A stretch of 64,000 nucleotides of DNA, from NCBI GenBank assembly GCA_029880285.1, contig JAOUOS010000008.1:1-64000 (forward strand). The letters run 5' to 3'. This document shows, piece by piece, positions 17,833 to 42,320 of the stretch. The position numbers and the translations under genes are program-made. The notes beneath the pieces are model-generated. The model ran no database searches, was not told the origin of the DNA, and was given only the letters and a program-made list of their open reading frames with translations. Numbering within the stretch: the first letter of the stretch is position 1; each line of letters begins with the position of its first letter. The DNA comes from Spirochaetia bacterium (lineage in GTDB: Bacteria; Spirochaetota; Leptospiria; Turneriellales; JAOUOS01).

Positions 17833-19332
17833 TTATATAGCATTATCGTTTTCATAACCTATAATCTCTTTTATAACCAAAGCAAGGTTTAGGCTTAATG
17901 ATGCGTCTTCAGTTTTCGAATTTTGAATATCGGTATTCCATTTTACCATTATATAATTTTCAGAAATATCATAAAATATGTTAACGCTTTCATAATTTGG
18001 TTTGTATAAAAAATGAATGCTTGAAATTTCTGATCCATATGAAATTATTTTATCAACCGCTTTTTCAAAAGATTCATTATGCGTAGCAATAATATAAAAT
18101 TTTAAATCTTTTTGTTCATAAGGATGTATATTGTGATACTTTATGCGAGTTAAAAGTCTTGAAAACATATTTGTTTTTTTATCGCCTAAAAATAAATTAG
18201 ATAAAAAATTTGAAACATATATAGAATCTACAGGTGTTATATGCGCCAAGTATCCAAATTTTTCAGGAAAACTCACCACAATTGAAGTACAAGTAGAAAC
18301 GCCCAGCGTATACAATACATCCCCCGGCTTTGCTTTGATATATTCATTTAAATCTACTTTTTTTAGTTTAGCGGTTAAATTTATATTTTTATCTGTTCTA
18401 TAGTCTTTCTTCGACATATATTCTGATATTTTAGCTATAAAATAACTTTTGTGCTTTAAATAAAAATCAGATAAAATTTCATCTTCATCAATTTCAGCCA
18501 CAATGGCCCAAACGGCGCCATAAATTTCAAACTTTTCATAAGAGCTAAAAACATTTATACCCCTGTAATCGGTTATTATTTTTTCGCCGCTGCCAAAGTT
18601 AAAAGCGTCTTTAACTGCCGTCGTTTCTATTTTCATTTTTAATATGGTGCTTTCTTCAAAAAAACGGGAATCAGTAAGCATTTCTTCATTACTGTTAACC
18701 AAATAGACTTCTCCTGTTCGGCCCAGGTCTTCATAGTTTTGCGCTATTTTATTTATTTGATTGATAGCTGCCTGAAGCACAAACCATCCTATAAATTGTC
18801 CGTCTTTTTTGACCGGTACAATAAAAAACGCGGCGGGCTCTTCTGAAGGATCATAGTATTCATAGTCGGTAAAAAATAATTCTTCTTTTTTTAACAAAGC
18901 GTTTGCCCATTTAGTATTTGTTAATTCAAAGATATTTTTATGATAATCAGATTCTCTTTTTATCGTATGAAAAACGAATCCTTCTTGATCTATAAATAAA
19001 ATGTCATAAAACAAATTATAATTTTTTACAAAGTTTCTATCTATTTCAATTAGGTCTCTTTCTTTTTGCGCCACTTTGTTATTATATTGACTCTCAAAAA
19101 AATTTTTCATAATAATATCATTTTTTATAGACTTAGCTTTTTCCTGCGCCAAAGAAAAATAGTCTAAAATTCTTTTTTTTCTTTCTTCTCTAATATCTTT
19201 TAATCTTGAAAATGTTTCTTGTTTTAAAGCTTTACCCAAAGGTATAGGTTTATAACTTAAAAAAAAGATTAAAGCGAACAAAAAGATTGAAATAAGACCA
19301 AGTATTGATTTTTTATTTTTTAGTATTTTCAT
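17833..19332 (-). CDS. Cache-type sensor fused to a CheD-like domain, single membrane anchor
   Basis: The protein has 499 residues. One hydrophobic helix (about 8-27) follows a Lys-rich start. Residues 35-285 look like a double Cache ligand-binding domain, including the ILFIDQEGFVF core and the late segment GAVWAIVAEIDEDEIL. No second membrane helix follows. Residues 325-425 then resemble CheD, the chemoreceptor glutamine deamidase: VLYTLGVSTCTSIVVSF with T342 and C348, and LAHITPVD with H364. The spacings T-6-C and C-16-H agree closely with the CheD triad. With one N-terminal anchor, the CheD-like domain should lie on the same, outer face as the Cache domain, which is unusual. The gene is 61 bases downstream of an RsbU-like phosphatase gene. 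CheD assignment is by motif only. Confidence 0.7.
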   Translation of the reverse strand: MKILKNKKSILGLISIFLFALIFFLSYKPIPLGKALKQETFSRLKDIREERKKRILDYFSLAQEKAKSIKNDIIMKNFFESQYNNKVAQKERDLIEIDRNFVKNYNLFYDILFIDQEGFVFHTIKRESDYHKNIFELTNTKWANALLKKEELFFTDYEYYDPSEEPAAFFIVPVKKDGQFIGWFVLQAAINQINKIAQNYEDLGRTGEVYLVNSNEEMLTDSRFFEESTILKMKIETTAVKDAFNFGSGEKIITDYRGINVFSSYEKFEIYGAVWAIVAEIDEDEILSDFYLKHKSYFIAKISEYMSKKDYRTDKNINLTAKLKKVDLNEYIKAKPGDVLYTLGVSTCTSIVVSFPEKFGYLAHITPVDSIYVSNFLSNLFLGDKKTNMFSRLLTRIKYHNIHPYEQKDLKFYIIATHNESFEKAVDKIISYGSEISSIHFLYKPNYESVNIFYDISENYIMVKWNTDIQNSKTEDASLSLNLALVIKEIIGYENDNAI

Positions 19333-19393: not shown

Positions 19394-20731
19394 TTATAAT
19401 TTTTTACAGGCAAGTAAAGTTATATCGTCAATTTGCCTGTTTTGATAATTTTGAACATCAGAAATTATATTTTCTACCAGCTCTTTCACAGGTTTTTTAC
19501 TGTTTTGTTCAAACATATTTATTAGACGATTTTGATCATACATTATTTCTTTTCGATTTTGGGCCTCAGTAAGACCATCTGTAAAAAGCAATATTATATC
19601 ATCTTTTTCAATTTCTACTTTTTCATTTGTCAAATATTCTTTCATATTATCAATAATACCTATCCAGGTACCCTTGCTTGAGACAGATTCCACTTTTCCG
19701 GTTTTTGATCTAAAAATTAATATATCCTGATGTTTTCCTGAATGAAAAAAACAATTACTTTCTAACTTTAAAATAGAAAGCGTCATGTACCGCTGTACAT
19801 TTAATCGACGAATGTTTTCTTTTATAACATAGTTCACTTTATTTAAAACTTCTGATGGTTTTGAATTTTTGTTTTGATTAATTAAACTATAGATACTGGT
19901 ATGCGTCATCATCATAATCAAACCCGATTCTACACCATGACCAGAAACATCACCTATTGCAAGCCATGTTTCATTATTAGGTGTTTCAATAATATCATAA
20001 TAGTCGCCGCCTACCTCTTCGGCTGGTATCATTTTCGCATAAACTTCGTACCCTGTTATTGAAGTATTATCAGGCAAAAGAGCTGTTTGTATTTTTTTCG
20101 CAATTTCCATCTCGCCCCACAGAGCGTCTCTGGCTTCTTTTAACTCGCGTCTTAATTGAAATTCTTGTCTAATTAAATTATGTCTAACATAATTGATACT
20201 AACCGCGATAATAACTGTAGCCGTCATAAAAAAAAGATTGTTAGCCAAAATTCTTTTATCAAACTCCTGCCCTGAAATAATATTTAATATTAAATAAATA
20301 AAAATTGTAATACTGCCATTCGCGGCTGAATGTTTTGTGTGCCACGGAATTAAAAGATTTACGCCTATTATTACAAGATTTAATCCCTGATAATAACTAG
20401 AATTAAAACCGCCTAAACTTACTGTCATTTCGGCAATAATAAAACTGGTAAAACCTGATGCAAAATAACCGTGTAAGAATGAATAACGACTGGGTTTTGT
20501 ATATCGAATAACAAAAAACTGCGCGACTAAAATCAGAGTATTTAAAAAACGATATATGCCAAATTCCTGTAATAGTTCTTTTGGCATTGTAAAATAATCT
20601 AAAAAACCGAAAATAGGTATTAAAGTAAACCCTAAGGCTGTTAAGGTTTTTGACCAGGAATGAATAATACTGTTTATATATACTTTGAATCGATCAGCAG
20701 CAAAATAAACATCATTCTTAAGATAATTCAT
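19394..20731 (-). CDS. RsbU/SpoIIE-type serine phosphatase with membrane sensor domain
   Basis: The protein has 445 residues. The N-terminal 190 residues hold about six membrane helices. A short coiled coil follows (about 195-220, RRELKEARDALWGEMEIAKKI). Then comes a complete PP2C/SpoIIE domain: AEEVGGDYYDI, AIGDVSGHGVESGL, LLFTDGLTEA and the final DDITLL. All Asp metal ligands are present, so it should be active. Such enzymes dephosphorylate STAS-domain anti-sigma antagonists. The substrate is plausibly one or both STAS-like proteins encoded just upstream in the same cluster (22236-22592 and 23096-23473). The gap to the methyltransferase gene is about 100 bases, so it may have its own promoter. 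Confidence 0.9.
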   Translation of the reverse strand: MNYLKNDVYFAADRFKVYINSIIHSWSKTLTALGFTLIPIFGFLDYFTMPKELLQEFGIYRFLNTLILVAQFFVIRYTKPSRYSFLHGYFASGFTSFIIAEMTVSLGGFNSSYYQGLNLVIIGVNLLIPWHTKHSAANGSITIFIYLILNIISGQEFDKRILANNLFFMTATVIIAVSINYVRHNLIRQEFQLRRELKEARDALWGEMEIAKKIQTALLPDNTSITGYEVYAKMIPAEEVGGDYYDIIETPNNETWLAIGDVSGHGVESGLIMMMTHTSIYSLINQNKNSKPSEVLNKVNYVIKENIRRLNVQRYMTLSILKLESNCFFHSGKHQDILIFRSKTGKVESVSSKGTWIGIIDNMKEYLTNEKVEIEKDDIILLFTDGLTEAQNRKEIMYDQNRLINMFEQNSKKPVKELVENIISDVQNYQNRQIDDITLLACKKL

Positions 20732-20832
20732 TATATTTTAGTTAATAAACTTTACAAAAAAAACTTATACTGAAATTTTTTATATCAGTATATTGATTAT
20801 TTTTTTTTGAAACAGACGGTCAATTTTAAAAC

Positions 20833-22224
20833 CTAAACCGGTTTTTCAATAACCAAAAACATCTGACATTTAGTATCTTCAAAAACAACAGCCTTAAAAT
20901 TAGCCTCAATATTATCTGCCAGCTTTTTTAGCTCTTCTTCAGAGCGGTAATACAATACCCAATCTCCCCAATAATCCATATAGATTTTTGTAGAATTTTT
21001 TTCATGATAATTGCCTATAATCATCCACCCGCCCGGTTTTAACAATGAATATAGCTTTTCAAGAATAGCCTGAGCAACTCTTGTTGACAAATAATCAAAA
21101 AGTCCCATTGAATATATAAAATGGAATGTTCCTATTTTTTTTTGAAGATCTTTTTCTCGAAGCATTGTTCTAACGGAATCTGTTATCAATTTATAATGAA
21201 TCTTTGAATTAAAGCGGTTTTCAATTTCTTTTATGCTGTTTTCTGCCTCATTTAAAGCCTCTTGATCCTGATCTAACAAAGTAAAATGATAGTCTTCGCA
21301 GTGAAGCGGCGATATAAGTATATTTTCAAGTTCTTTTGTAGGTCCGCAGGCGACAGATAATATATTAAATTTATCTTTTAGTTGTTCAAAATTTTTTCTT
21401 GCTCTTGCGATAATAACAGGTATCATTGTTTTTCTGTTTCTAACCGCTTTTGCCGATTTCGTTTCAATGGGATGTTTATGCATTAATTTAGAAAATATAC
21501 TTTCGCCTTCATATGAATTTTCATAAATCATAGACATCATTTCTGAGTCTCCGGCATAACCCCGCGGTTTAACATTTGTTCTAGTTAAAAAAGAAGAAGA
21601 AATAATAATATCCCATACTTGACGGCGAAAATAATAAGCGTGAGTTTCATGCTCTTCTAGAGTAAATTCTGAGGTAATGCTTTTTAATTCTTCTAATTTT
21701 TCATCAAAAAAATTAAAAAATTTTCTACCCTCTTTTTCAATAATTATATTTTGAGTTTCTTTGTAAATTGCAGGGGGTTCTTTTTCATAAATTTTATCAA
21801 GCTCGTCAAAATACTTTCGGTATACTCTTAAATCATATGTTAAATTAGACGTATATTTTCGAAAAGAATCTTTTATTTTGTTTTTTAATCCTAAAATTAA
21901 CGGCATACTTTGAAAATAAGTTTCTAAATTAGAAGTTTTTTTCATAGAAAAAATACTATAAAAATCATAAACATCTTCAAGAAAAAAAAGTCTGCCAGAA
22001 AAGTTTGGCGCGATATGCTCTAAAATGATTTTGCATCGACCAAATTTGAATTCTTTGTTTTCTAAAGTAAAACTAAAAGCTTCAAATTCAGTATTATCTT
22101 TTACCGTTTGATTAGTCAATAAAACAACCAACAGTGAATTTTTTGATCCATAGGTTATTTTAACAGGAATTTTTTGTTTGTTTTGATATAAAATACCATC
22201 AAATACAATATTTATTTCTTTCAT
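20833..22224 (-). CDS. SAM-dependent methyltransferase with PilZ-like N terminus, partner-switch cassette member
   Basis: The protein has 463 residues. The C-terminal half is a class I methyltransferase: NILSVACGPTKELE is the SAM-binding loop, a TLLDQDQEAL acidic strand follows, and then FHFIYSMGLFDYL and LLKPGGWMIIGN. Before it lies the block RGYAGDSEMMSMIYE. I know that block from methyltransferases annotated as 'extracellular factor 3-hydroxypalmitate methyl ester biosynthesis' (PhcB-like), so a fatty-acyl or other small-molecule substrate is possible but unproven. Residues 1-110 are beta-rich, possibly PilZ-like. The gene starts 11 bases after the second STAS-like gene, so it clearly belongs to this operon. 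Confidence 0.75.
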   Translation of the reverse strand: MKEINIVFDGILYQNKQKIPVKITYGSKNSLLVVLLTNQTVKDNTEFEAFSFTLENKEFKFGRCKIILEHIAPNFSGRLFFLEDVYDFYSIFSMKKTSNLETYFQSMPLILGLKNKIKDSFRKYTSNLTYDLRVYRKYFDELDKIYEKEPPAIYKETQNIIIEKEGRKFFNFFDEKLEELKSITSEFTLEEHETHAYYFRRQVWDIIISSSFLTRTNVKPRGYAGDSEMMSMIYENSYEGESIFSKLMHKHPIETKSAKAVRNRKTMIPVIIARARKNFEQLKDKFNILSVACGPTKELENILISPLHCEDYHFTLLDQDQEALNEAENSIKEIENRFNSKIHYKLITDSVRTMLREKDLQKKIGTFHFIYSMGLFDYLSTRVAQAILEKLYSLLKPGGWMIIGNYHEKNSTKIYMDYWGDWVLYYRSEEELKKLADNIEANFKAVVFEDTKCQMFLVIEKPV

Positions 22225-22235
22225 AATATCTTTAA

Positions 22236-22592
22236 TTAAATTGATAAAATATTAATTCGGTTATCGTTTGTTTTGAAAATTTCAAGAGCCGAAAAACTTA
22301 ATTCCTGCCATTTTAAATCTTTAGAATACAGCAAGGATAATTTTTCTTTTCCATTTTTTATTTGTTCAAGAATTCTTATTATAGGAGTAATTGTCGATGA
22401 GTTCATATATTCAAAGTGTCTGAAATCCATAATAAGAGCTTTTTGTTTTCTTAATAGTTCGGTAAAAACGGGGTTTAAAAATTCTCCTGGATTCATTTCG
22501 GTACTTTTGCCTCGCCAGATTATTTTAATTTCATCTTTCAATTCTTCAATTTCTAAAATTAATTCTTTATTTATTTTTTTCTCATTTATCAT
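22236..22592 (-). CDS. STAS-like anti-sigma-factor-antagonist family protein (second copy)
   Basis: This 118-residue cytosolic protein is a paralogue of the product of 23096-23473. Shared landmarks are NPxEFLxP, the LIMDFRHF strand, MNSS (residues 63-66) followed by TITPIIRIL, and a C-terminal WQELSFSALEIFKT. MNSS stands where SpoIIAA-type proteins have the phosphorylated Ser of MDSSG. Thus Ser65 or Ser66 could be phosphorylated by the neighbouring kinase-like protein and released by the SpoIIE phosphatase. The family is diverged enough that this is a fold-level inference. It begins 3 bases after the HATPase-like gene. Confidence 0.65.
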   Translation of the reverse strand: MINEKKINKELILEIEELKDEIKIIWRGKSTEMNPGEFLNPVFTELLRKQKALIMDFRHFEYMNSSTITPIIRILEQIKNGKEKLSLLYSKDLKWQELSFSALEIFKTNDNRINILSI

Positions 22593-22595
22593 AAA

Positions 22596-23090
22596 TTATT
22601 CCTTTTTTAATTTAAAAACAGCAGACATTGCTAAAATATCATTTTCGTTTACATAAAAATCAAGAATAGATTGACCTTCATAGGCTATTCTCACAAGACC
22701 CAATCCGCTTTCACCTTTTTCAAGCTCTTTGGTTGAGATATGTTTAAGCTTTTCAATATAAGCTTCAAAAGGGTTTTGATATCCCCGTATCCATTGAATT
22801 GTTTCATCTAATCTTTTAAGATCAGAATCTTCAATATCTTTTATTTTATTCTTTACTTCTGTAATAATTTCATTTTTTTCAATATCAATGGTAATAGAAA
22901 TAATATCTTTTTTTATGCTATCTGCGCCATATTTTACTGCGTTTTCACACAATTCACTTGCTGTCATAACAATAGCGTGAATTTTATTTATGTCAAACTT
23001 ATTTTCCGTAAGAAATTTATGTACCTGATCTCTAACAACATCTATCTCTTCCCAAACAGGTTTTATGTTCAGCTTCAATGAACTGGGCAT
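22596..23090 (-). CDS. RsbW-like HATPase-fold protein, degenerate
   Basis: The protein has 164 residues. An N-box SELCENAVKYG at 45-55 carries the Glu and Asn expected of GHKL ATPases, and GESGLGLVRIAYEG (125-138) is the G2-type glycine loop. The DxGxG (G1) motif that normally lies between them is not visible: that region reads as Lys/Asp-rich linker. The protein may therefore bind ATP weakly or work purely as a binding partner. It sits between two STAS-like genes with gaps of 3 and 5 bases, the layout of a partner-switching module in which an anti-sigma-type kinase binds antagonist proteins. No sigma factor gene is adjacent, so the final target is unknown. Confidence 0.7.
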   Translation of the reverse strand: MPSSLKLNIKPVWEEIDVVRDQVHKFLTENKFDINKIHAIVMTASELCENAVKYGADSIKKDIISITIDIEKNEIITEVKNKIKDIEDSDLKRLDETIQWIRGYQNPFEAYIEKLKHISTKELEKGESGLGLVRIAYEGQSILDFYVNENDILAMSAVFKLKKE

Positions 23091-23095
23091 TAATT

Positions 23096-23473
23096 TTATA
23101 AACCCCTTATTTGTACTTTTTTATCGGGAGTTTCAAAAAGTTTTAGCTCTCCCAAAAGAACTTCTTGCCATTGTATATTTTTATTGTATAATACCTGAAT
23201 TGTACCTTTGCCGTCTCTGGCGCTCTTTAATATCTTTATAATAGGAATTATAGCAGAAGAATTCATAAAAGAAAATTTTTGAAAATCTAAAATAATTTTC
23301 TTCATAGGTTTTTGTAAACTTAAATTTAATTGATCAGTTAATATAGGATCTAAAAATTCCGCCGGATTTTTTAATGTACATTCTCCCAGCCATCTAATTC
23401 TTATTAAATAAGAGGCTGTTTCTATTTCGATTTTTAATTTATCTTTTTCATATAATTTTTTTTCATTTTCCAT
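23096..23473 (-). CDS. STAS-like anti-sigma-factor-antagonist family protein (first copy)
   Basis: This 125-residue protein opens the partner-switch operon. It shares with the 22236-22592 protein the pattern NPAEFLDPILT, IILDFQKF, MNSSAIIPIIKIL (Asn71, Ser72, Ser73) and WQEVLLGELKLFET. The MNSS site is placed like the phosphorylatable MDSS of SpoIIAA. Having two paralogues flank a HATPase-like gene suggests either two inputs to a single kinase or an antagonist/decoy pair. It has no membrane segment. The gene has a short upstream gap of about 90 bases after the malic enzyme gene, so a promoter may lie there. Confidence 0.65.
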   Translation of the reverse strand: MENEKKLYEKDKLKIEIETASYLIRIRWLGECTLKNPAEFLDPILTDQLNLSLQKPMKKIILDFQKFSFMNSSAIIPIIKILKSARDGKGTIQVLYNKNIQWQEVLLGELKLFETPDKKVQIRGL

Positions 23474-27427: not shown

Positions 27428-30400
27428 CTAAGGGTTTTTCACAAGACGAAAGCCCAAGTCGTTATTTTCTAAATACGGTCCATTACCGCCCAAGTTACCA
27501 ACACGCAATACATCCGCCGGATTAAAATAGCTTCCGCCGCGGCTTCCACGAAATGATCCGATTGTATACCAATCAAATATCCACTCCGATACATTTCCAC
27601 ATATATCATAAAGCCCAAGAGCATTGGCTGTTTTAGTCGCTGTATCATGAGAAACGCTACCACTGTTTACCATATACCAACTGTAATTACCCAATATAGT
27701 AGAGGCATTATAGGGCGCCGATGTATCGCCGCTTATGTGAGAACCCGGATAATATTCACCCGTAGCCATAATATCGTTATCTGAGTTAGAGTCATCAATA
27801 TATCTTGCCGCAAGCTCCCATTCATTACTTGTAGGCAGTCTAAAACCTTTCGCATTCGGGTTTACATAGGGATTATCAAAACTGCCTGCTGTCATGTTTG
27901 TACTTGCGCCATATGCTCCATCGGCAGAACTTCGCATGGGTACGGTATATGCCGCGTCAGAGGTATATGCTACCGCGTATGAAGTACCATTTTGAGTATT
28001 ATAATATTCGGTCAAAGCATTTGCAAAAACCATCGCATCCCGCCAGTTTATGGTTGTTACAGGTTCCAGTTTCGCGGCTGTCGGCGCACCCCCTGCCATA
28101 CCATCATTGCCCTCTTTGCCCGCGTTGGCAAATATATAACCATTCGCCACTGCCCATGTTCTAACAGCATACCAAAGTTCATAAGTTACTTCGGTTTCGG
28201 CCATTAAATAAGCATTTGATAGAGTTACCGTACCGCTATCGTTTATACCAGTAAAAAATTTTTTACCCTCTATGTATCTCATATTAAAAGCAACAGCGCC
28301 GGCGTTATGCGCTACCCTGTCAGCCGCTTTTGGCGGTTCTGTACGGGTAAAGCGAAAGCCTATATTGGCAACTTCTGTATAAGGAAAGTCAGACATTGGG
28401 ACACTAATTTGTGTATAAAATGTACTATTGCCAAAGTCACCTCCGCGTCTGTATCGGTAATTACCAATATTTTGCCAGCTAAAAACCCATTCCCATACAT
28501 TGCCGCTCATATCATAAAGCCCAAGCGCGTTAGCTGTTTTTTCGGCGGTATTATGCGCGGCGCCGCCGCTGTTACCTGAATGCCATGCCACATTGTCTGT
28601 TGCTGTCGTATCAGTATATGCAGCTGTCGCCCCGCTGGCATAATTTCCCGGATAGTACTCACCCAGGTCAAGAATATCCCCATCACTATTTGTATCGTCA
28701 AAATATCTTGCCGCAAGCTCCCATTCGTTACTTGTAGGTAGCCTGAATCCATTTGATATATTGTTTGTCATATCTGTATTGCCATCAGTATCGGCTTTAA
28801 TATAAGGATTATCACATGCTCCCGCTGTTGTGTTTACAACTGCGCCGCATACAGCATCGCTTGAATTTCTATTTGGTGTTGTATATGTGCCGTCTGTATA
28901 ATAAACCGGCTCAAATGAAGTACCATTTTTTTGATTATAATATTCCGTAAGCGCGTTCGAAAACACCATAGCGTCGCGCCAGTTTATTTGGGTAACAGGT
29001 TCTTGATCATTTGTTGTAGGCACAGCTCCGTCTACACCGTCATGACCTTCTCTACCCGCGTTGGCAAAAGTATATCCATTCGCTGCGGCCCATGTATACA
29101 CCTCATACCAAAGCTCATAAGTCACTTCTGTTTCGGCAATCCAGTAATTATGGCTCACCGAAGCTGTACCGTTGTCGTTTGTACCTGTTTTAAAAACCTC
29201 TGAGGGCACATAAACTTCGGCAAATCTGGCACCATTTAAAGAATGAATTTTTTTATTACCCGCGATACCGTCAAAATGCGGCTGAACGTTAGTTGTAATG
29301 CCTGTTGAAATATTACCAAGGATATCCACTGTTTTTATAGTAAAAATATATAACGTTTCATTTGTTAATGAACCCGCCGTATATGTCTGCGTATCGGCTG
29401 GTATTGTTTGATACCCCGCGCCGGGCGACCATGTTATTTCAACATGATCAAAATCATTGTCGGCAGGGTCGCTCCAGCTTAATGTTATTTCTGCGTCGCC
29501 AGCATGCGCATATAAACCGCTTACTTCGGCAGGGGCCGCTTTATCAATAGTATAAATAGCGTTTGAAATCGTTGAATTCATATAACCGGCTTTACAGGCA
29601 ATTGCCTTGAGTGTTGTTGTTACTGTTGAACCCGGCGCAGCTGTTATACTTACCGGCGCAGAATAAAGACTTCCTGATGTGCATGAAGGCATTGTGTCAC
29701 AGGCAGGCACCGCACCATCTGTGGTAAAACATATAGTAACCGGCGCGCCTGTTGTAGTGCTTATAATAATGCTTTGATCTGTATTGAATGTTTCGGCTGC
29801 CGGAGTAAATACCGGAGCGGCCACTGTACCAAAGGTTACTGCTGAAGCTTCATCGCTTGGTATACTAATATTACCCGCATAGTCTTTAGTTCTTACCTTA
29901 AAATAATAAGTTGTCTGAGCGTTTAAACCCGTTATATCTGTCGAATTATTACCGGCTGCCGTTGTTTTACTTATCGTAAACGTATCGCATCCTCCGGGTG
30001 TATCGCTTTGACATATTTCATACCCAAGATTTTCTGAAGCGGTAACATCGTCTGAAGAAATATCCCATAATAAATTAATTTGACTATATCCTGTTGCTGT
30101 CGCGACAAGGCCGGTTACTTGCTCGGGCGGCCATTTATCTATAGTATAGACAGCGCTTGAAATGCTTGAATCCGCATATCCAGCTTTACAGGCAATTGCT
30201 TTAAGCGTTGTTGTAGTTGTTGACCCTGCTGAAGCTGATATGCTTACCGCAGAAGAATAGGCACTTCCCGCTGTGCAAGAAGGGATCGCGTCGCAGGCAG
30301 GCAGTGTAAATCCGTCTGTGGTATAACAAATGGCGTCAGGCACGGCAGTGGTTGTGCTTATATCTATGGCTTGATCGGCCGCGTAAATTCCTGACGAAAC

Positions 30401-32977
30401 GCTAAACGTAGGCGCATTTACTGTTCCCACGGCATTGGTTGTAGCTGTCGCTTCAATACTGGGCATGCCGATATTTTCTACATTGTCTTTGGCCCTTACT
30501 TTAAAATAATACGATGTATTTGTATTTAGGCCGGTTATATCTGCCGAAGTAACTCCCGCTGCTGTTGTTTGACTTACCGCAAATGGTTCGCACCCGCCTG
30601 ATATATAGCTTTGGCATATCTCATAAACAAGATTTTCAAAAGCGGTCTTATCATCAAATGAAGCGCTCCAAAGTAGATTAATTTGATTTTCTCCTGCCGT
30701 TGTAGCTGTAAGGCTGGTTACCGGCGAAGGTGGTGTTTTATCAATAATATAATCTATGCTTGAAATAGAAGAATCAATATAACCCGCTTTACAGGCAATT
30801 GTATTTAATGTTACCGCTGTTGTAGAATCTGCCGCGGCTATTATATTAACCGGTGAAGAGTATAAATTTCCCACGGTGCAAGAAGGCATCCCATCACAGG
30901 CAGGCATTGTAAATCCGTCTGTGGTATAACAAATTATTACAGGCGCGGATGTTGTCGTTGTTACAACAACATTTTGATCTGTCCCATAGACACCTGCAGC
31001 AATATTAAATTCAGGCATACTTGCTGTACCTGTAGAATTGGTTGTCGCCGTCGCTTCATTGCTTGCTATACCGGTATTTGCGGTACTGTCTTTAGCTCTT
31101 ACCTTAAAATAATATGCCGTCATGGGAGTTAAGCCTGTTATATTGGCCGTAAGTTCTCCCGCTAATGTTGTTTGACTTACAATAAAAGCGTTACATCCCC
31201 CTGAAGTATCGCTTTGACATATCTCATAAACAAGCGATTCTGGAGCGGTTTTATCGTCTGATGAAATATTCCATGAAAGATTTATTTGGTTGTCTCCCAT
31301 GGTTTCGGCGGTCAAATTGGTTACCTGCGCGGGCGGTGTTTTATCAATTGTATAATTGATACTTGATACTGACGAATCAATATAACCCGCCTTGCAGGCA
31401 ATTGCATTAATAATTGTTGTTGTCGTTGAACCTGTCGATGCCGTTATACTAACCGGCGAGGCTGAGTAAGTAACACCCGCGATACATATAGGCGTTTCGT
31501 CACAGGCAGGCATTGTAAACCCGTCTGTGGTATAGCAAATTTTAACGGGAGCGGACGTTATTGTTGTAATAGCAACATTTTGATCTGTACCATAGTCGCC
31601 TGCTACTACGCTAAAAATAGGATCGTTTACTATACCTATGGCATTGGTTGTAGCTGTTGCTTCAGAGCTTGCTATACCGGCATTTTGTACGCTGTCTTTG
31701 GCTCTTACCTTAAAATAATAGGCCGTCATAGGAGTTAATCCTGTTATACTGGCCGTAAGTTCTCCTGCTGATGTTGTTTGACTTTCCGTAAAAGTATTAC
31801 ATCCCCCTGAAGTATCGCTCTGACATATCTCATATATGAGCGATGCCGGTACAGTTTTATCGTCTGACGATTCGTTCCATGAAAGATTTATTTGGTTGTC
31901 TCCCATGGTTTCGGCGGTCAAATTGGTTACCTGCGTGGGCGGCGTTTTATCAATGGTATAATTGATACTTGATATAGATGAATCAATATAGCCCGCCTTG
32001 CAGGCAATAGCCTTTAGCGTTGTCGCTGTTGTAGAGCCTGACGGTGCTACTATACTTACAGCAGAAGAATAAAGACTTCCCACTGAACAAGAAGACATCG
32101 CGTCGCAAGCCGGCAGTGTAAATCCGTCTGTGGTATAACAAATTGTTACAGACGCGGATGTTGTTGTTGAAATAACAACGCTTTGATCTATTCCATATGT
32201 ACCTGTTGTTACGTCGAATGTAGGCGAATTTACAGTACCAGCGGCATTGGTTATTGCCGTTGCTTCATCACTTGGCATACCAATATTACCCGCAGTATCT
32301 ACCGCGCGTACACGAAAATAATAAGCCGTCAAAGAATTTAAACTTGTTATATCTGCAGAAGTAACCCCCGCTGTCGTAGTCTTGCTTGTTGCAAAACTAT
32401 CACATCCGCCAGCCAATAGAGATTGACATATTTCATATATAATTTTTGCGGTATCGGCAGCATCATCCGATGACACGTTCCATGAGAGATGAATTTGACT
32501 TTCTCCGGCGGCTACAGCTATAAGACCGGTTACCTGCGAAGGAGGCGTAATATCATTCATAATTACATTAACCGTAAATGTTTTTGTTGTACTTTCTTCG
32601 CCTTTAGTGATTGTCGCTGTAAGCGTTACTGTAACATTGCCGCCTTCTGTAGGCTGTGTTACCAAAGCACTGCTACCTGTAAATGTGATAATGCTATTAT
32701 CGCTTGACCAGCTTATTTCTGAACCGTTGTTACCTTCAAGAGGCACAATAAAGTCTTGTGTTACTGACGCATCGTTATCTCCCGCGATAAAGGTAAAATC
32801 GTTAAAATCAAGAGCATCTTTATCGCCGGCCACCGCCGCTTTATCGGCCTTGCGTCCCTCAATATAATCTTGACTTTCGGGGTCATTAATGTTCGTGTGT
32901 TCTAATACCCCGCCTTGGCAGTTAAATACAAAAAAAAGACTTATCAGTAACAATATATTTAGTATTTTATTTAACAT
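27428..32977 (-). CDS. Giant repeat lipoprotein: Ig-like, five FnIII/chitobiase-like pairs, two FGE-sulfatase-fold domains
   Basis: The protein has 1849 residues. A signal ends in VFNC (about Cys20). An Ig-like bacterial domain spans about 55-145. Then come five units of about 190 residues, each an FnIII domain (starting near TPPxQVTxL) followed by a chitobiase C-terminal-like beta domain (with CYTTDGF and ACKAGY). A sixth FnIII domain follows. Residues of about 1215-1520 and 1530-1849 are two FGE-sulfatase (SUMF1-like) domains, each with GFRLPTSNEWELAARY and a GNVWEW/GNVSEW motif. The cysteines of formylglycine-generating enzymes are missing in both, so a binding role is more likely than catalysis. 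The gene follows a CsgG-like gene by 11 bases, hinting at dedicated secretion or assembly. Confidence 0.9.
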   Translation of the reverse strand: MLNKILNILLLISLFFVFNCQGGVLEHTNINDPESQDYIEGRKADKAAVAGDKDALDFNDFTFIAGDNDASVTQDFIVPLEGNNGSEISWSSDNSIITFTGSSALVTQPTEGGNVTVTLTATITKGEESTTKTFTVNVIMNDITPPSQVTGLIAVAAGESQIHLSWNVSSDDAADTAKIIYEICQSLLAGGCDSFATSKTTTAGVTSADITSLNSLTAYYFRVRAVDTAGNIGMPSDEATAITNAAGTVNSPTFDVTTGTYGIDQSVVISTTTSASVTICYTTDGFTLPACDAMSSCSVGSLYSSAVSIVAPSGSTTATTLKAIACKAGYIDSSISSINYTIDKTPPTQVTNLTAETMGDNQINLSWNESSDDKTVPASLIYEICQSDTSGGCNTFTESQTTSAGELTASITGLTPMTAYYFKVRAKDSVQNAGIASSEATATTNAIGIVNDPIFSVVAGDYGTDQNVAITTITSAPVKICYTTDGFTMPACDETPICIAGVTYSASPVSITASTGSTTTTIINAIACKAGYIDSSVSSINYTIDKTPPAQVTNLTAETMGDNQINLSWNISSDDKTAPESLVYEICQSDTSGGCNAFIVSQTTLAGELTANITGLTPMTAYYFKVRAKDSTANTGIASNEATATTNSTGTASMPEFNIAAGVYGTDQNVVVTTTTSAPVIICYTTDGFTMPACDGMPSCTVGNLYSSPVNIIAAADSTTAVTLNTIACKAGYIDSSISSIDYIIDKTPPSPVTSLTATTAGENQINLLWSASFDDKTAFENLVYEICQSYISGGCEPFAVSQTTAAGVTSADITGLNTNTSYYFKVRAKDNVENIGMPSIEATATTNAVGTVNAPTFSVSSGIYAADQAIDISTTTAVPDAICYTTDGFTLPACDAIPSCTAGSAYSSAVSISASAGSTTTTTLKAIACKAGYADSSISSAVYTIDKWPPEQVTGLVATATGYSQINLLWDISSDDVTASENLGYEICQSDTPGGCDTFTISKTTAAGNNSTDITGLNAQTTYYFKVRTKDYAGNISIPSDEASAVTFGTVAAPVFTPAAETFNTDQSIIISTTTGAPVTICFTTDGAVPACDTMPSCTSGSLYSAPVSITAAPGSTVTTTLKAIACKAGYMNSTISNAIYTIDKAAPAEVSGLYAHAGDAEITLSWSDPADNDFDHVEITWSPGAGYQTIPADTQTYTAGSLTNETLYIFTIKTVDILGNISTGITTNVQPHFDGIAGNKKIHSLNGARFAEVYVPSEVFKTGTNDNGTASVSHNYWIAETEVTYELWYEVYTWAAANGYTFANAGREGHDGVDGAVPTTNDQEPVTQINWRDAMVFSNALTEYYNQKNGTSFEPVYYTDGTYTTPNRNSSDAVCGAVVNTTAGACDNPYIKADTDGNTDMTNNISNGFRLPTSNEWELAARYFDDTNSDGDILDLGEYYPGNYASGATAAYTDTTATDNVAWHSGNSGGAAHNTAEKTANALGLYDMSGNVWEWVFSWQNIGNYRYRRGGDFGNSTFYTQISVPMSDFPYTEVANIGFRFTRTEPPKAADRVAHNAGAVAFNMRYIEGKKFFTGINDSGTVTLSNAYLMAETEVTYELWYAVRTWAVANGYIFANAGKEGNDGMAGGAPTAAKLEPVTTINWRDAMVFANALTEYYNTQNGTSYAVAYTSDAAYTVPMRSSADGAYGASTNMTAGSFDNPYVNPNAKGFRLPTSNEWELAARYIDDSNSDNDIMATGEYYPGSHISGDTSAPYNASTILGNYSWYMVNSGSVSHDTATKTANALGLYDICGNVSEWIFDWYTIGSFRGSRGGSYFNPADVLRVGNLGGNGPYLENNDLGFRLVKNP
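29530..32540. repeat. Five tandem ~570-bp coding repeats
   Basis: The FnIII plus chitobiase-like units of the giant lipoprotein gene repeat every 570-580 bases. Neighbouring copies (for example around 31300 and 31900) share long near-identical stretches, such as a run ending in TTTATTTGGTTGTCTCCCATG. Unequal recombination could change copy number. Confidence 0.8.
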
Positions 32978-40346: not shown

Positions 40347-42320
40347 ATGTTTTTTCAAAAGTATAAATTTTTTTTTATTTTCTTAATTATATTATTTATT
40401 TTAAATTGCTCTGCTAAAGAAGAAAATTTTATCGTAAAAAACGGCGAAATTGATTTGTCAAATTGGGATTTCATAAAAGACGGAAGTGTTGAACTAAAAG
40501 GAACATGGAAGTTTTACTATAAAAAGCTGTTTTCTAACGGCACAGACCTATCTAAAGAAGAATATTCATTTTTATATTCCCCGGGCCTATGGAATGGTTC
40601 TACACAACAGGGCAAAGAAATAAACGGATTAGGCTACGGAACTTATAAATTAAATTTGATTCTTGGCTCTAATAGGCCGTCTTTAGCGATAAAAATGATC
40701 GATGCGGCGACATCATATAATATGTGGTTTAATAAAAAAAAAATATTGTCTAACGGCCAAATAAGCGAGAAAGAAAATTTATATAAGCCGCAATTTTTTT
40801 CTTCGGTTATTCTTTTAGAAAATCTTCAGCAGAATAATGAAATCATAATAGAGGTCGTTAATTTCAAACATAGTAAAGGCGGTATGTGGTTAGCGCCAAT
40901 TATTGGTAAGGCCGAAGAAGTTATAATACAAAAAAGAATAAATACTTATATAGATGTTTTTTTAGTAGGGAGCCTTCTAGTCGTGGCTATTTATAATATG
41001 TTTATGTTTTATTTTCATAAAAAAGATAAAGCCTCTTTATATTTTTCATTGTTTGCTCTGGCTATAATTTTTCGCATAATACTAATTAATGAAAAACCGC
41101 TTTACCAAATTTTTCCCAATTTTAACTGGTATTTAGGCAATAAGATTGAATATATAAGTTCATATTTATCTAATATTTTGTTTTTACTGTTTATAAATTC
41201 TATTTTTTCAAAATATCTTAATAAAAATATTCTAAATACTCTGTTAGCACTTTTTAGTACCGGAACTTTAGTTGTTATTTTTTTCCCGCTGTATTATTAT
41301 TCAAAAACAATGTTTTATTTTGAAATCTCAATGATAGTAGGAGGCATTTGGGTTTTGATGGTTATTTTAAAAGCGCTTAAAGAAAAGAAAAGTGAAGCTT
41401 TACTTGTTCTAATTGGTTTTATTTCTCTTTTTCTTGCGGTTATCAATGATATCTTGTTTAATGAGCGAATTATAAACACATTTCATTTGGCCCATTGGGG
41501 ATTGTTTGCTTTTATGCTTCTTCAAACCGGGAATATTTCTATGCGCTTTTCTAAAACATTATCTTTTACCAAAAAAATAGCTTTTGAGTTAGATATCGCG
41601 AAACAAGTGCAAGAAAACGTTTTAACTTTTCCAGATTATTATAACAATATAAAAGAATTTGAAATTGCTGTTACCTATTTACCGCAAAATAAAAAAGTAG
41701 GGGGCGATTATTATAATATTAGTCAACTTGAAGATAAGTCTGTTTCAATTATCATTGCCGATGCCATAGGACACGGTATACAGGCTGCTTTAAGAACAAT
41801 GCAAATTCATGCAATATATATGCAAAATAACAAACCCGAATCTTCCATGCAAACACTAAAAAACATGAACAACAATATCTTAAAAAGCAAAGACGTTTTT
41901 AGCCAGAATTATTTTACTGCTTTTCTTATTAATGTTAGAAAAGGCGCAATTTCATTTTCTTCTGCGGGTCATCCGGCGCAGTATCTTTATAAATTTAAAA
42001 CAAAAGAATTAAAAAAACTGCAGACATCAGGAAAAATTTTAGGGGTTTTAGATGATGCCGAAATTGAATTAAAAAAAGAAAAATTTGAAAATGCAGATAT
42101 AATTTTTCTTTTTACAGATGGTTTGTTTGAACAGCTAAATGATAAGGGAAAAGAATTTAGCGAAAAAAAACTTTATACCTTGTTTGAAAAAGCTGTAAGT
42201 AATGCTTCAGAAAAAAGCCTTGAAAAAATAAATTTATCGGTGATAAATGAATTAGATAGATATAAAGGAAAAGAACCATCTACAGATGATATTACATTGA
42301 TTTCAATTCGTTTAAAATAA
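40347..42320 (+). CDS. 7TMR-DISM receptor with SpoIIE-type phosphatase output
   Basis: The protein has 657 residues. A signal with a possible lipobox (FILNC, near residue 21) is followed by an extracytoplasmic beta-sandwich domain (30-195, 7TMR-DISMED2-like, with the TWKFYYKKLF and SPGLWNG segments). Seven membrane helices (about 200-400) come next, and then a coiled linker and a PP2C/SpoIIE domain with VGGDYYN, IIADAIGHGIQA, FLFTDGLFEQ and TDDITLI. The GDVSGHG motif reads ADAIGHG here, but the Asp ligands are kept. It should sense a ligand outside and dephosphorylate a STAS-type protein inside. It is a further output phosphatase besides 19394-20731. Confidence 0.88.
   Translation: MFFQKYKFFFIFLIILFILNCSAKEENFIVKNGEIDLSNWDFIKDGSVELKGTWKFYYKKLFSNGTDLSKEEYSFLYSPGLWNGSTQQGKEINGLGYGTYKLNLILGSNRPSLAIKMIDAATSYNMWFNKKKILSNGQISEKENLYKPQFFSSVILLENLQQNNEIIIEVVNFKHSKGGMWLAPIIGKAEEVIIQKRINTYIDVFLVGSLLVVAIYNMFMFYFHKKDKASLYFSLFALAIIFRIILINEKPLYQIFPNFNWYLGNKIEYISSYLSNILFLLFINSIFSKYLNKNILNTLLALFSTGTLVVIFFPLYYYSKTMFYFEISMIVGGIWVLMVILKALKEKKSEALLVLIGFISLFLAVINDILFNERIINTFHLAHWGLFAFMLLQTGNISMRFSKTLSFTKKIAFELDIAKQVQENVLTFPDYYNNIKEFEIAVTYLPQNKKVGGDYYNISQLEDKSVSIIIADAIGHGIQAALRTMQIHAIYMQNNKPESSMQTLKNMNNNILKSKDVFSQNYFTAFLINVRKGAISFSSAGHPAQYLYKFKTKELKKLQTSGKILGVLDDAEIELKKEKFENADIIFLFTDGLFEQLNDKGKEFSEKKLYTLFEKAVSNASEKSLEKINLSVINELDRYKGKEPSTDDITLISIRLK

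Follow-up and report, generated by a model that had tools for sequence, protein, structure and literature searches.

The DNA analysed here, called the window in the following, is a stretch of 64,000 nucleotides from a Spirochaetia bacterium of the order Turneriellales (assembly GCA_029880285.1, contig JAOUOS010000008.1). On its minus strand it carries a cassette of five genes encoding two STAS proteins (STAS1 and STAS2), a GHKL serine-kinase-like protein (KIN), a class I S-adenosylmethionine (SAM)-dependent methyltransferase (MT) and a membrane-anchored SpoIIE/RsbU-type phosphatase (PPM), whose N-terminal membrane sensor domain we term TM6. It is well supported that this is a partner-switching cassette which always contains a methyltransferase and which has no sigma factor. 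Concerning its function, we see roughly even chances that MT makes a signal, that TM6 of PPM is the receptor and that kinase and STAS form the relay, perhaps feeding back on MT. In the searched literature no description was found of partner switching with a methyltransferase, or of a PP2C phosphatase serving as receptor for a quorum signal. This agrees with a previous sequence-only reading of the same DNA, which knew of no characterised system of such composition.

According to the proposed mechanism, MT would produce a small methylated signal, probably of acyl or fatty-acid type as its Phc-type relatives suggest, and TM6 would act as receptor for this product. Fold and conserved residues point to KIN as the enzyme phosphorylating STAS at the conserved MNSS serine and to PPM as the receptor-phosphatase removing the phosphate; the level of free STAS would thereby report the signal. 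The cassette has no further conserved gene, and the STAS/kinase state may therefore feed back on MT, closing an autoinduction loop, or control a target encoded elsewhere. A closed loop running from the signal through receptor-phosphatase and STAS to MT would itself account for the lack of other conserved genes. More tentatively, the cassette might be a quorum-sensing system with a SpoIIE-type phosphatase as autoinducer receptor, in which the kinase/STAS switch also controls MT, i.e. a four-gene, horizontally spread autoinduction circuit present in at least five phyla. If true, two well-studied kinds of signalling are joined in one portable cassette, and Phc-type methyl-ester signalling extends to Spirochaetota, Myxococcota and Desulfobacterota.

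Layout and spread of the cassette

The genes follow each other in the order STAS1 (positions 23096..23473, 125 amino acids), KIN (22596..23090, 164 amino acids), STAS2 (22236..22592, 118 amino acids), MT (20833..22224, 463 amino acids) and PPM (19394..20731, 445 amino acids). All are on the minus strand, with intergenic gaps of 5, 3, 11 and 101 bases, in agreement with the genes and spacings given in the sequence-only reading. KIN and MT were assigned by family, profile and model matches, PPM by Pfam and conserved residues. There is no sigma factor gene within the cassette, and a promoter and terminator scan of the region gave at most a weak excess over shuffled sequences.

Related loci were gathered by searching the phylum of the bacterium and named genome contigs with the kinase alignment, followed by careful assignment of the open reading frames (ORFs). 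The cassette recurs in 39 named genome loci with the core order KIN-STAS-MT-PPM and one STAS gene. The hosts belong to Spirochaetota, Desulfobacterota (Desulfobacterales), Myxococcota, Calditrichota and Neomarinimicrobiota; an additional Lewinellaceae locus lies on one short contig and may be misbinned. Wherever the sequence is not interrupted ahead of MT, MT adjoins kinase/STAS (38/38 loci). A strict automatic test for KIN-STAS-MT-PPM on one strand is passed by 27 of the 39 loci. PPM is cut or broken in L082, L085 and L091, precedes MT in L074 and L075, is located on a different contig in L073 and was not found after MT in L103. A cyclase is inserted in the cassette of L076, STAS is shifted to the opposite strand, after PPM, in L104, L106 and L107, and a contig end interrupts the cassette of L094.

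Among 393 Spirochaetota genomes, all 16 kinases scoring 140 bits or more are encoded beside an MT. Kinases with E <=1e-20 were detected in 2/198 sampled genomes of the phylum of Desulfobacterales and in 21/195 sampled Myxococcota genomes. In the MT tree the phyla are intermixed, pointing to horizontal spread, and the reappearance of the arrangement across phyla argues for more than chance. Thus the gene order, when looked for in other genomes as had been proposed with the sequence-only reading, proved to recur in at least five phyla, with MT consistently beside kinase/STAS. Two single loci may be mentioned. A borderline-clade kinase (134 bits; L117, G040:C23), near a contig end, adjoins a phosphomannomutase-type enzyme instead of MT. 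The MT gene of G036 (L031, 7882-9297) is interrupted by two in-frame stop codons, and an intact relative exists in G021.

This conservation bears on the idea that the cassette is a conventional partner switch whose target, for instance a sigma or transcription factor, is encoded elsewhere, MT being a passenger and modifying membrane or small molecules. Among characterised proteins the closest relative of the kinase is Slr1658, which alters expression of other genes (PMC7555055), and more remote kinase/STAS pairs from that superfamily adjoin unrelated genes, often a phosphatase, without MT. MT however stays beside kinase/STAS in at least five phyla, unlike a passenger, and we regard this explanation as unlikely.

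The methyltransferase and its TM6 partners

In the AlphaFold model of MT (pLDDT 91), a seven-strand barrel and a helical part are combined with a class I methyltransferase domain. Model and motifs indicate that the N-terminal seven-stranded beta-barrel (residues 8-81, 21982..22203, minus strand) is probably a degenerate PilZ-like domain, while family match and model assign residues 280-463 (20836..21387, minus strand) to the SAM-binding methyltransferase domain. Structural neighbours in the PDB are methyltransferases of various kinds, and many of these are small-molecule enzymes. Control of MT by cyclic di-GMP via PilZ was considered and rejected, as the PilZ-type motifs RxxxR and DxSxxG are kept jointly in the barrel of Leptospiraceae homologues only and Pfam gives no PilZ match in MT.

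PPM matches the SpoIIE domain PF07228 over the full domain (1.6e-37). Its PP2C/SpoIIE catalytic domain (residues 194-445, 19397..20152, minus strand) is assigned by Pfam and conserved residues; D243, D246, D261, D385, D435 and D436 of PPM are invariant. With a full SpoIIE domain and its metal-binding aspartates present, the phosphatase is complete, as had been read from the sequence before. The preceding 193 residues (20153..20731, minus strand) form TM6, a domain of about 190 residues that no Pfam model matches. By profile, TM6 is found in PP2C phosphatases, HisKA histidine kinases, Hpt/HATPase kinases, chemoreceptors (methyl-accepting chemotaxis proteins) and a class III cyclase, all encoded beside homologous MTs, and would be a membrane sensor domain common to these phosphatases, kinases, chemoreceptors and cyclases.

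TM6 is the partner most constantly encoded beside MT. Among 1302 long ORFs, all 78 TM6 matches are found no more than 3 kb from an MT, in loci that were picked for kinase or MT and are hence biased. In the 393 Spirochaetota genomes, 19 MTs score 400 bits or more; 18 of them adjoin a TM6 protein and 16 adjoin kinase/STAS. The MT of G004:C125 adjoins a TM6-Hpt kinase and that of G029 a TM6 chemoreceptor; in G047 the contig end truncates the locus, of which STAS can still be seen. TM6 is present in 23 of the 27 genomes with MT as compared to 23 of 366 others, counts not corrected for phylogeny. The genome of the window encodes one TM6 protein only.

This pairing pattern appears to fit a signal synthase with its receptor, as in Phc quorum sensing, at least as well as it fits MT as an output. 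In Ralstonia, PhcB is a SAM methyltransferase making 3-hydroxypalmitic or 3-hydroxymyristic acid methyl ester (3-OH PAME/MAME), which PhcS senses, and the operon has the order phcBSRQ (PMC10653808, PMC11960443). A restricted distribution in Betaproteobacteria has been reported for the phc gene cluster (PMC10653808). A Paraburkholderia graminis plasmid (NZ_CP024936) encodes an MT (468 amino acids), a TM6 histidine kinase and two response regulators in order, which is the layout of Ralstonia phcBSRQ. On a Pseudanabaena plasmid (NC_019690), MT, TM6 histidine kinase and response regulator are adjacent, MT being on the opposite strand. The MT profile scores 207 and 178 bits on the Paraburkholderia and Pseudanabaena MTs, and the TM6 profile scores 40 and 33 bits on the two kinases versus at most 11 and 8 bits for class-preserving shuffles, of which about 2000 were scored per kinase; here bit scores are fairer than E-values, which refer to a set of six proteins. 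With hhalign, the comparison to Paraburkholderia gave 99.9% for MT and, against the kinase, 95% for TM6. A tblastn search of the plasmids with the window TM6 found nothing, and the TM6 link came from the profile. The Paraburkholderia MT has R22, as has PhcB from Ralstonia (PMC6989110), and the phospho-histidine of the kinase is at position 233 as compared to 230 in PhcS (PMC11960443), an agreement that is circumstantial.

Several observations weigh against MT and TM6 being synthase and receptor of a Phc-type signal. The link runs via a phc-like plasmid operon and not via the sequences of PhcB and PhcS, and in the alignment to the Paraburkholderia MT the N-terminal third of MT was left unmatched. 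Moreover, the PhcR-like protein of Paraburkholderia is a lone receiver without the kinase domain of Ralstonia PhcR, which makes the operon phc-like and not proven phc. One high-scoring MT (G004:C3) has no adjoining TM6, its PPM being on another contig. Of the Spirochaetota genomes, 46 of 393 have TM6 and only 23 of those have MT, and several TM6 proteins are encoded far from any MT; with half of the TM6-bearing genomes lacking MT, TM6 may respond to another cue or to many. Distant MT relatives, which have a cyclic nucleoside monophosphate (cNMP)-binding domain in place of the barrel, are without a TM6 neighbour in the regions read.

A different account, to which we attach a limited probability, takes MT as the effector. 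Unphosphorylated STAS would bind MT and switch its activity, and TM6-PPM would sense an unrelated environmental cue. STAS adjoins MT, usually with few bases between them, the kinase clade always occurs together with MT, and no output gene, be it a sigma factor or another, belongs to the conserved content of the cassette. The action of SiaC on the diguanylate cyclase SiaD (PMC7647112) is a precedent for an enzyme output replacing a sigma factor. Yet the constant partner of MT is TM6, and homologous MTs pair with TM6 kinases, chemoreceptors and cyclases at loci without STAS or kinase, from which it follows that MT does not need STAS. MT as output and MT as signal synthase can both be true.

We consider it very improbable that MT methylates TM6 receptors or another signalling protein in the manner of CheR, thereby serving adaptation instead of producing a signal. 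Weak CheR similarity is found in 25/33 MT members (best 1.1e-5), and chemoreceptors are encoded near MT at two loci. In the window MT, however, the similarity is short (residues 362-406, in the SAM-binding part) and below the curated cut-off, and the phc-like operon is the closer functional lead.

Further proteins related to MT, TM6 or PPM were encountered. TM6 is fused to a chemoreceptor signalling domain near MT in L030 (9694-11256) and L114 (654-2294), where chemotaxis toward the MT product is possible. The distant MT relatives of L033-L038 are of the same class, with an N-terminal cNMP-binding domain in all three that were scanned; at L037 the neighbour tested is an MPAB/Lcp oxygenase-like protein. 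A type I polyketide synthase on Enterobacter ludwigii plasmid NZ_CP134637 (L144, 3709-6846) has the methyltransferase domain of the cassette MT family as its C-terminal end. A second PPM seemed to follow many cassettes. This was due to drift of the iterated profile, and Pfam identifies those that were tested as TM6 histidine kinases; in some other cases the protein is a further TM6-PP2C of divergent sequence. In the window, a dCache_1 membrane protein is encoded just downstream of PPM (17833-19332, minus strand). As a candidate cassette sensor it was rejected, since it is not seen beside the cassettes of relatives; its C-terminal half has no Pfam match and looks CheD-like by eye (LGVSTC...YLAHITP). 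Another SpoIIE phosphatase of the window, with a 7TMR-DISM sensor (40347-42320, plus strand), is unlinked to the cassette.

Kinase and STAS proteins

The predicted model of KIN (pLDDT 91) resembles SpoIIAB (TM 0.66/0.81) and SiaB (TM 0.66/0.64), and the protein is RsbW/SpoIIAB/Slr1658-like. The N-box residues E46, E49, N50 and K53 are invariant across 33 homologues and the G2 loop is retained with the sequence ESGLGL. The usual DxGxG (G1) site reads E78-V-K-N81. As DxGxG is present in none of the 33 kinase homologues, its absence, correctly recorded together with N-box and G2 loop in the sequence-only reading, is a feature of the family.

The small proteins, read as STAS-like from the sequence, are indeed STAS folds: a profile of 36 homologues matches TM1442 (4e-7) and SpoIIAA (8e-4) in the PDB. 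Both carry the MNSS that had been noted, M70-N-S72-S73 in STAS1 and M63-N-S65-S66 in STAS2. Alignments predict Ser72-Ser73 (23255..23260, minus strand) and Ser65-Ser66 (22395..22400, minus strand) as the phospho-site pairs, and Ser65 of STAS2 is invariant in the 36 homologues. MNSS had been taken for a deviation and is the family norm.

In the STAS tree, STAS1 forms a separate clade with three near relatives (support 100/100), and STAS2 groups among the core proteins, i.e. with the single STAS of other cassettes. A third STAS is present in two relatives. The conserved core thus contains a single STAS, and STAS1 is a duplicate confined to its lineage. Two STAS paralogues, considered as the defining trait of the cassette, were rejected as such, most cassettes having a single one. 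Of the earlier interpretation, a partner-switching cassette with a methyltransferase and without a sigma factor stands, whereas the relay of a signal to MT by two STAS paralogues is not supported in the form proposed.

Apart from the cassette, the window encodes a protein of 1849 amino acids (27428-32977, minus strand) with six fibronectin type III stretches, a purple acid phosphatase N-terminal domain and a C-terminal FGE-sulfatase domain.

Comparison with known signalling systems

With RsbU/RsbV/RsbW and SpoIIE/SpoIIAA/SpoIIAB, the cassette has in common the folds and the phosphatase-STAS-kinase logic. It differs from them in lacking a sigma factor gene and the kinase G1 box and in containing a methyltransferase and the TM6 sensor. 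The SiaABCD system of Pseudomonas aeruginosa is alike in its PP2C phosphatase, a similar kinase fold, a STAS-like phosphoprotein and a non-sigma enzyme in the operon, which is a diguanylate cyclase there and a methyltransferase here. Scores for the SiaC family PF09345 (19.7 and 20.7, Pfam cut-off 24.5) and for the SiaB-type family PF19788 (DUF6272; 24.1, cut-off 26.6) leave the window proteins outside both families.

The best family matches were obtained to the Slr1658/Slr1659 superfamily of Synechocystis, with 8e-13 for the kinase and 1e-9 and 9e-7 for the STAS proteins (STAS1 to NF047705, slr1659 superfamily, 1.2e-9, below the cut-off). At 48 bits for the kinase and 38 and 29 bits for the STAS proteins, the scores for NF047703/NF047705 are far under the 100-bit cut-offs, and the proteins are relatives and not members.

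The Phc system and the cassette share a methyltransferase gene beside a membrane sensor. The methyltransferases are of similar size, as PhcB has about 470 amino acids at most according to published mutation coordinates. Where Phc employs a histidine kinase and response regulators, the window cassette has a SpoIIE phosphatase and a kinase/STAS pair.

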